DNA of 64,000 nt from Cyclobacteriaceae bacterium (lineage in GTDB: Bacteria > Bacteroidota > Bacteroidia > Cytophagales > Cyclobacteriaceae): positions 2,403,501 through 2,467,500 of the forward strand of contig CP075525.1 in assembly GCA_025808415.1 (NCBI GenBank). The letters are read 5' to 3'. Position 1 is the stretch's first letter, and every line of letters begins with the position of its first letter. This document shows, piece by piece, positions 62,261 through 63,090 of the stretch. Made by a program: the position numbers and the translations under genes. The notes under the pieces were generated by a model that was given only the letters and a program-made list of their open reading frames with translations, was not told the origin of the DNA and made no database searches.

Positions 62261-62295
62261 AAAAACAAAAAGTCCTGACGTTACCGCCAGGACTT
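62261..62295 (-). terminator. Rho-independent terminator of the tRNA-like RNA
   Basis: In the minus direction AAGTCCTG and CAGGACTT form an 8-bp stem with two further inner C-G pairs, followed by TTTTGTTTTT. It lies 30 bp after the 3' end of the tRNA-like element and before the fadD promoter, so it ends that RNA and insulates fadD. Confidence 0.8.
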
Positions 62296-62325
62296 ACTCA
62301 AACTTAATTAACCACGAAGAGTTTG

Positions 62326-62504
62326 CTGTAGAGGGAGGGTTCGAACCTCCACGGGGAAGTTAGCTACAGGACATACAGAGAGAACATTAGTGGTCAACCC
62401 CAGCCTGCCGAAGCGTAAGCCCTGGCAGGCATTATCCTGCGTTTATCCTTGGCTCCCCACCCCCGAGACAGGAGGGCTTGTCTGCCAATTTCAACACCCT
62501 ACAG
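62326..62504 (-). ncRNA. tRNA-like structured RNA with very long variable region
   Basis: Read on the minus strand, CTGTAGGG at the 5' end pairs with CTCTACAG at the 3' end (8 bp, one G-U). Then come T8 and G9, a 3-bp D stem TTG/CAA with loop AAATTGGCAGA (A14, G18-G19 and A21 present), an anticodon-type arm CCCTC-CTGTCTC-GGGGG (5 bp, 7 nt) and a T arm GGAGG-TTCGAAC-CCTCC with canonical loop. Between anticodon and T arms lie about 109 nt instead of 4-24. They begin with GGGGAG, which can pair with TTCCCC at the far end (one G-U), and contain a GCCTGCC/GGCAGGC hairpin. Loop positions 34-36 would read GTC, but T37 is unlike normal tRNAs. No CCA is encoded. A terminator follows. Confidence 0.6.
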
Positions 62505-62625
62505 TGTAATTGATGCATCAAAACAACAATTTTATTGAATATACATCAACATATATTCATAAATTTTATGAATTATTTAGTATTTTATAATTTTATTAAA
62601 ATTTTTAAAATTTAATAGCTTGGAA
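62505..62625. other. AT-rich divergent region between the tRNA-like RNA and the Lrp/AsnC gene
   Basis: About 120 bp, extremely AT-rich from 62531 to 62620 (long runs of A/T with TATAAT- and TTTAAAATTT-like strings). It must hold the promoters for both directions. No clear TAnnTTTG was found for either transcript; curved or melted DNA and Lrp binding are plausible but unproven. Confidence 0.45.
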
Positions 62626-63090
62626 ATGGCCGAGAATTATCAAGTTGACAATACCGACCTCAAGATCCTGGAAATACTCATGCAGGATGCCAAACGACCT
62701 TATACCGAGGTAGCCAAAAAGGTATTTGTATCGGGCGGAACGGTGCATGTTCGAATGAATAAGCTGGAAGAGGCTGGCATAGTAGAAAAGACAACACTCA
62801 AGGTAAACTATGCAAAACTCGGCTACGACATTACAGCATTTTTGGGTATCTTCCTGGAAAAGAGTGCGTTATATGACCGCGTTCTGGCCAAACTTAAATC
62901 CATTCCGGAGATTACAAACATTCATTACACAACCGGCAACTACAGCATGTTCTGTAAAATCCACTGCCGTGATACAAACCATTTGAAAGAGGTCCTCCAC
63001 GACAAAATTCAGCAGGTTGATGGGATTGAGCGAACCGAGACCATGATAAGCCTGGAGGAAAGCCTGGACCGTAACTTGGACCTTGCCTGA
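62626..63090 (+). CDS. Lrp/AsnC-family transcriptional regulator
   Basis: A 154-residue regulator from ATG 62626. The N-terminal winged helix-turn-helix is VDNTDLKILEILMQDAKRPYTEVAKKVFVSGGTVHVRMNKLEEAGIV (residues 6-52), and the C-terminal RAM domain is LGYDITAFLGIFLEKSALYDRVLAKLKSIPEITNIHYTTGNYSMFCKIHCRDTNHLKEVLHDKIQQVDGIERTETMISLEES (65-150). Such proteins form octamers that respond to amino acids. The gene sits 86 bp before sufB on the same strand and divergent from the tRNA-like RNA; either may be a target. Relatives in front of suf are typical in Bacteroidota as far as I recall. Confidence 0.93.
   Translation: MAENYQVDNTDLKILEILMQDAKRPYTEVAKKVFVSGGTVHVRMNKLEEAGIVEKTTLKVNYAKLGYDITAFLGIFLEKSALYDRVLAKLKSIPEITNIHYTTGNYSMFCKIHCRDTNHLKEVLHDKIQQVDGIERTETMISLEESLDRNLDLA

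Follow-up and report, generated by a model that had tools for sequence, protein, structure and literature searches.

A conserved tRNA-shaped RNA of the Bacteroidia and some of their phages, possibly a non-decoding carrier for asparagine synthesis

A tRNA-shaped RNA encoded in a Cyclobacteriaceae genome is real and conserved, and is spread over the class Bacteroidia and some of their phages. The letters it conserves, its neighbour gene and the enzymes with which it co-occurs suggest that it serves as a dedicated, non-decoding carrier tRNA for tRNA-dependent asparagine synthesis, a reading drawn from sequence comparison to which we give a probability of about two in three. A wider claim, which we hold a little less firmly but still consider probable, is that it represents a class-wide 'metabolic tRNA', which would have left decoding to become the Asp-to-Asn carrier of Bacteroidia and, via the phage copies, of their viruses, would fill the place of asnA beside asnC, and would explain why GatCAB is kept together with AsnRS and GlnRS.

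The RNA gene lies on the minus strand at 62325-62503 of the window, i.e. of the whole stretch of 64,000 nucleotides that was analysed. A full tRNA cloverleaf with a variable region of 109 nt and its own terminator is read there from 62503 to 62326 (U1 = 62503, G73 = 62326, encoded C74 = 62325), is supported by covariation and matches the covariance model described below with 139 bits. An earlier note, made from the letters of the window, had read all parts of a tRNA core on this strand, with a variable region of about 109 nt and a strong terminator downstream; all of these were found in place, the terminator at 62270-62295 (minus strand, 11 pairs, loop of 4, U-tract). The acceptor stem (5' strand 62497-62503, partner 62327-62333, minus strand) comprises 7 bp, from U1-A72 to G7-C66, followed by the discriminator G73; the 8 bp given in the note do not hold, as the supposed eighth pair joined G73 to position -1, which varies among relatives (C, A, T or G). 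The D arm (62478-62494, minus) resembles that of tRNA-Leu, with a stem 10-12/23-25, A14, A15 and G18 G19, and its pair 10-25 covaries as A-U, U-A or G-C; among the genome's own tRNAs it is also tRNA-Leu that gives the best whole match. The anticodon arm (62460-62476, minus) reads CCCUC-CUGUCUC-GGGGG, with the anticodon GUC at 62469-62467 followed by U37 and C38. The T arm (62334-62350, minus) has the loop UUCGAAC and two-sided changes in three of its five pairs, and in a few members of the family its stem contains bulges. Judged from alignments and pair counts, the RNA has the 7/5 acceptor-T stack, U8, A14, R15-Y48, G18 G19 and TTCRA that are hallmarks of tRNAs. The note was right that a 3' CCA is not encoded, yet this is no anomaly: encoded CCA is absent from 35 of the genome's 37 ordinary tRNAs, nearly all of which, like the RNA, encode N73-C74 only, and its lack therefore carries no meaning.

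Folding of the single sequence is weakly better than that of shuffles (z = -1.56), and therefore the structural case rests on comparison between copies. In the single-sequence fold, UGUCU of the anticodon loop pairs with AGACA of the D loop, but several relatives break this pairing, which was judged coincidental. Homologues were found by blastn in 43 of 59 relatives, and a covariance model was built on 24 copies, with members scoring at least 76 bits and tRNA-Leu about 61 bits or less. It finds matches in 287 of 291 Cytophagales genomes at E<=0.001, with a tail of weak hits that are tRNA-Leu; the RNA is present in most of the Cytophagales genomes sampled, and in 40 of the 284 non-Cytophagales genomes of our class sample of Bacteroidia. 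Carriers include Algoriphagus, Cyclobacterium, Echinicola, Flammeovirga, Hymenobacter, Spirosoma, Saprospiraceae and Chitinophagaceae. Over 97 distinct rows of the alignment, 98.8% of the cells assigned to helices are paired, compared with 88.9% after column shuffles and 54-61% with slid partners, and two-sided changes occupy 226 cells against 53 expected, with 16 of the 25 pairs showing them. The homologues with covarying stems that the note had asked for in Cytophagales, and the lack of a tmRNA match, were thus both obtained, and a decaying tRNA gene, one of its proposals, is refuted by the class-wide conservation and the covariation. Some copies occur in unusual settings: a degenerate partial copy lies just 5' of the intact one at one locus (L143), and at four others (L162, L199, L283, L284) four or five copies stand in tandem, about 200 bp apart.

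Standard searches pass this family by. ARAGORN makes no call on the RNA, Rfam gives no credible match, and a scan of the genome with the Rfam tRNA model lists 37 tRNAs over the cut-off, the RNA not among them. The best Rfam match below threshold, sraL, was rejected: it scores 21 bits where the gathering score is 39, and it covers only part of the RNA. A literature search of openly licensed papers returned no paper describing it.

The variable region (62351-62459, minus strand, 109 nt) differs in length from relative to relative, and its organization is nonetheless recognizable. It is closed by GGGG (62455-62458) and CCCC (62353-62356), of which 99.2% of cells are paired, with two-sided changes in three of the four pairs. 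Next comes a conserved internal loop, with GGAUAAA on its 5' side (62442-62448) and CUAAC as its partner (62363-62359), near-invariant in bacterial copies and altered in many phage copies, which we take to resemble the UAA/GAN internal-loop motif. The remainder is a hairpin (62364-62441) without conserved sequence, whose ends pair much better within a copy than when swapped between copies (mean duplex energy -7.5 vs -2.3 kcal/mol, P = 2e-38). The motif GGGUUGACCAC lies inside it at 62390-62400 (minus); 44 of the 90 distinct inner segments contain this motif, and phage copies carry it as GGGGUAGACCAC. The inner GCCTGCC/GGCAGGC hairpin described in the note is present, but it is lineage-specific and missing in close relatives. 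An insertion or intron, also considered there, is disfavoured, since the inserted segment forms a variable arm that covaries, with tRNA-Leu geometry and an internal loop conserved in nearly all members, and since one lineage lacks the arm. In that lineage (genome G048, L285:2338-2414, minus strand) the RNA measures 77 nt, is devoid of the whole variable arm and gives a 69-bit hit, and it retains U1-A72, G2-C71, G73, U35 C36 and C38; the same form may occur in further genomes of this genus that score around E = 1e-16. ARAGORN names the arm-less form tRNA-Asp(atc), and this natural variant, in which these letters are kept, speaks for the carrier reading.

The functional proposal starts from the letters that hardly vary among the 97 distinct rows. 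G73 and C74 (97/97 each), U35, C36 and C38 (96/97 each) and G34 (95/97) are near-invariant, and so are U1-A72 (96/97) and G2-C71 (97/97), unlike acceptor pairs 3-7, which drift with compensating two-sided changes. G73, G34, U35, C36 and C38 are strong bacterial determinants of aspartate identity (PMC9976931), and the RNA possesses all of them. Two other aspartate elements, G1-C72 and G10, are not kept, the former being replaced by U1-A72 and position 10 being A in 61, U in 27 and G in 9 rows; this counts against the carrier reading, as G1-C72 is helpful to AspRS. U1-A72 makes Asp-tRNA a substrate for amidation, which G1-C72 and U20a prevent (PMC9976931; PMC4206432). The RNA has the U1-A72 pair of GatCAB substrates and is free of the U20a antideterminant, its D loop being GGCAG(A/C), with A after C20. 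Among the 37 ordinary tRNAs of the genome only tRNA-Asn and tRNA-Gln have U1-A72, and tRNA-Asp has G1-C72. The RNA therefore joins letters read by AspRS with letters read by GatCAB.

The anticodon loop is not that of a decoding elongator, in which U33 and a purine at position 37 are expected. Position 37 is U in 86/97 rows and a pyrimidine in 92/97, with a purine in 5/97 and A in 1/97; U33 is present in 84/97 and replaced in 12/97. All of the genome's own tRNAs have purine 37, after correction of a one-base register in tRNA-Lys. The T37 pointed out earlier is thus real, conserved and abnormal and, together with the terminator, the anticodon loop supports the earlier view of a separate tRNA-like transcript that is unlikely to be an elongator. 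The genome also encodes an ordinary tRNA-Asp (GUC) and five tRNA-Leu, and therefore codon reading does not require the RNA.

Divergently from the RNA, on the plus strand, lies a gene for an AsnC-type regulator of the Lrp family (62626-63090 from an ATG at 62626, within an ORF of 62620-63090 that begins with TTG). The protein scores 171 bits against the NCBIfam AsnC model, under its cut-off of 227, and its best solved structure is E. coli AsnC (2cg4, 133 bits, the next best reaching 85). The divergent asnC is found about 100-450 bp upstream of the RNA in many Cytophagales. Of 38 carriers examined outside this order, 25, from 12 families, also have it as divergent neighbour, with differing outer flanks. 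The E. coli pair asnC-asnA is likewise divergent, with 151 bp in between, and AsnC controls asnA there. The region shared by the two genes (62504-62625) probably holds both promoters: 27 of 35 relatives have the Bacteroidetes-type motif TA(n2-4)TTTG 5' of the RNA, compared with 15% of shuffles, and inspection of the window itself by eye revealed none. Palindromes of the kind expected for AsnC sites are present between RNA and asnC, within chance for AT-rich DNA (an equal span arose in 48 of 500 shuffles). A replacement of the RNA by asnA beside asnC in RNA-less relatives was not seen: one genome (G360) does not have it, and in two others (G569, G065) there is no asnC homologue near asnA.

Bacteria that possess AsnRS, GlnRS and GatCAB, Bacteroidetes among them, have been regarded as a puzzle, for which amidation on tRNA-Asn was proposed, or possibly a vestigial state where an asparagine synthetase exists (PMC4206432). 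In our class sample of 295 genomes, 50 with and 245 without the RNA, in which GatCAB was scored by its GatB subunit, GatB is present in 50/50 carriers vs 168/245 non-carriers (Fisher P = 7e-8). The informative genomes are the 101 with GlnRS, because GatCAB is not needed there for Gln-tRNA: 26/26 carriers have GatB, vs 8/75 non-carriers (P = 2e-17, uncorrected for phylogeny). The co-occurrence is partly phylogenetic, and it repeats inside families: f61 has six genomes with both and three with neither, f56 four and two, and f23 three and one. AsnRS is found in 48/50 carriers, and therefore GatCAB is not needed for Asn-tRNA. Some carriers are without GlnRS, however, and need GatCAB anyway, which weakens the argument. 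So does family f33, to which all eight non-carriers with GatB and GlnRS belong (G332, G376, G412, G444, G474, G503, G529, G555): their GatB is divergent (E about 1e-105), and this orphan GatCAB is not explained by the carrier reading. With a broader covariance model the RNA was still absent from the retested non-carriers, f33 included, and a diverged copy behind the orphan GatB was not found.

The distribution of asparagine synthetases is two-sided. AsnA is absent from 49/50 carriers and present in two f61 genomes without the RNA. AsnB-like proteins, however, are found in 48/50 carriers, the source genome among them, with no hit in G322 and G476 and only weak ones in G046 and G064; the prediction that carriers would be without asnB failed. 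The route through the RNA is therefore usually not the sole source of asparagine, for which both AsnA and AsnB would have to be lacking, and this is a further point against the carrier reading.

Sixteen viral contigs (IMG/VR, L287-L302, 7-326 kb) match the pattern of the anticodon arm, and a full copy, scoring 75-118 bits, is present in 15 of them; a search of named phages and plasmids gave no match. Many of these copies sit in crowded tRNA arrays with as many as 22 members, and an ordinary tRNA-Asp is also present in several of these arrays. The phage copies retain U1-A72, G73 and CUGUCUC, and the internal loop is often changed. In one contig (L294) a tmRNA gene begins 26 nt downstream of the RNA, and in some phage copies a hairpin is inserted in the D loop. 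Carriage by phages suggests that the RNA is useful to them and fits metabolic as well as translational use.

Starting from the observed structure, conservation, adjacency to asnC and co-occurrence with GatB, we propose the following scheme. The short RNA would be transcribed, processed and CCA-tailed like a tRNA, and AspRS would charge it with aspartate, recognizing G34 U35 C36, C38 and G73 together with G2-C71, as their conservation implies. GatCAB would then amidate Asp-RNA to Asn-RNA, with U1-A72 in place of the G1-C72 that protects tRNA-Asp. U37, the relaxed U33, the bulges in some T arms and the size of the variable arm would bar Asn-RNA from the ribosome, where it would insert asparagine at Asp codons. 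Speculatively, asparagine would be freed by deacylation and then used by AsnRS. AsnC probably controls the RNA gene, as E. coli AsnC does asnA, to judge from the shared architecture. Against the scheme, the long variable arm might clash with AspRS, a class II enzyme.

We regard as unlikely, though deserving attention, a regulatory or scaffolding role in the Asp/Asn system, in which the RNA would bind AspRS and GatCAB (serving, for instance, as a decoy, a sensor of charging or the scaffold of a transamidosome) and tune asparagine metabolism or asnC without being a bulk carrier. It would draw on the same identity elements, the coupling to GatB and the asnC neighbour, and the conserved internal loop and the GGGUWGACCAC motif look like contact sites for protein or RNA. 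However, a decoy need not keep the determinants of charging and amidation plus G73-C74, and tandem arrays of up to five copies and the arm-less form suit a carrier at least as well. The regulatory tRNA mimic put forward in the earlier note came near to this kind of RNA, but the letters that are conserved and the presence of GatCAB in the same genomes speak for a metabolic carrier rather than a regulator.

We consider it improbable that the RNA takes part in translation as an atypical tRNA-Asp isoacceptor, equipped with a type II arm and reading GAU/GAC as a reserve or under particular conditions. The complete cloverleaf, the GUC anticodon and the phage arrays of about 20 tRNAs would suit such a role, and the arrays count to that extent against the carrier reading. 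Nonetheless, an ordinary tRNA-Asp (GUC) is present in the genome and beside the RNA in several phage arrays, the pyrimidine 37 and the non-U33 are atypical of decoding tRNAs, bulges occur in some T stems, and a spare tRNA-Asp would need neither GatB nor U1-A72. Slightly more doubtful still is a carrier for another product, in which the amino acid on Asp-RNA or Asn-RNA would be passed on to a peptide, a lipid or a precursor of the wall. Charged non-decoding tRNAs play such roles elsewhere, and the frequent coexistence of AsnB-like enzymes would be accommodated, but no transferase recurs as a neighbour in the loci examined, where the constant partner is asnC. A descendant of tRNA-Leu, decaying or with an intron-like insertion, is very improbable: a tRNA-Leu-like body and variable insert length recommend it, yet all helices covary, the spread is class-wide, the ends of the insert are paired, and decay is refuted as described above.

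The RNA thus constitutes an uncatalogued family, missed by ARAGORN and Rfam and widespread in Bacteroidia. If the carrier reading is true, the chemistry is known and the carrier new, because tRNA-dependent asparagine synthesis has been already described, and neither Rfam nor the literature that could be searched yielded a separate non-decoding carrier for it that has a large variable arm. It would then be a tRNA devoted to making an amino acid and not to codon reading, its copies in large phages would be possible auxiliary metabolic RNA genes, and it would answer why many bacteria keep GatCAB despite AsnRS and GlnRS, differently for Bacteroidia from what was proposed before (PMC4206432).

Several known systems resemble this RNA in part. 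Like tmRNA, it is a tRNA-like bacterial RNA, but it has an intact anticodon arm and no tag frame; there is no tmRNA match in Rfam or ARAGORN, and the genome's tmRNA is elsewhere. YrlA, a bacterial Y RNA that mimics tRNA, offers another case of tRNA mimicry by a noncoding RNA, and identity with it was rejected, with no match in Rfam and no Ro/TROVE protein in the genome. Allo-tRNAs, reportedly described by Mukai and colleagues in 2017 as unusual bacterial tRNAs with long variable arms, and tRNA-Sec are similar in this respect, whereas the RNA has normal 7+5 acceptor/T stems and no Ser, Cys or Sec anticodon. With type II tRNA-Leu it shares the D arm, the two unpaired nucleotides after the variable arm and the overall body, and it differs in G73 instead of A73, in the anticodon GUC and in a variable arm many times longer. 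At the asnC-asnA locus of E. coli, too, an AsnC-type regulator and a gene that serves asparagine synthesis diverge, at a distance of about 150 bp, but that gene encodes the protein AsnA where we find an RNA. The closest parallel in chemistry is found in Deinococcus, Thermus and Bdellovibrio, where a non-discriminating AspRS and GatCAB act on tRNA-Asn (PMC4206432): there too GatCAB stands beside AsnRS and GlnRS, the substrate has U1-A72, and Asp is converted to Asn on an RNA, as we propose here. In these bacteria, however, it is the ordinary, decoding tRNA-Asn (GUU) that acts as carrier after mischarging by an AspRS of relaxed specificity, whereas Bacteroidia would use a separate RNA that does not decode, bears an Asp anticodon and could be charged by an ordinary AspRS.
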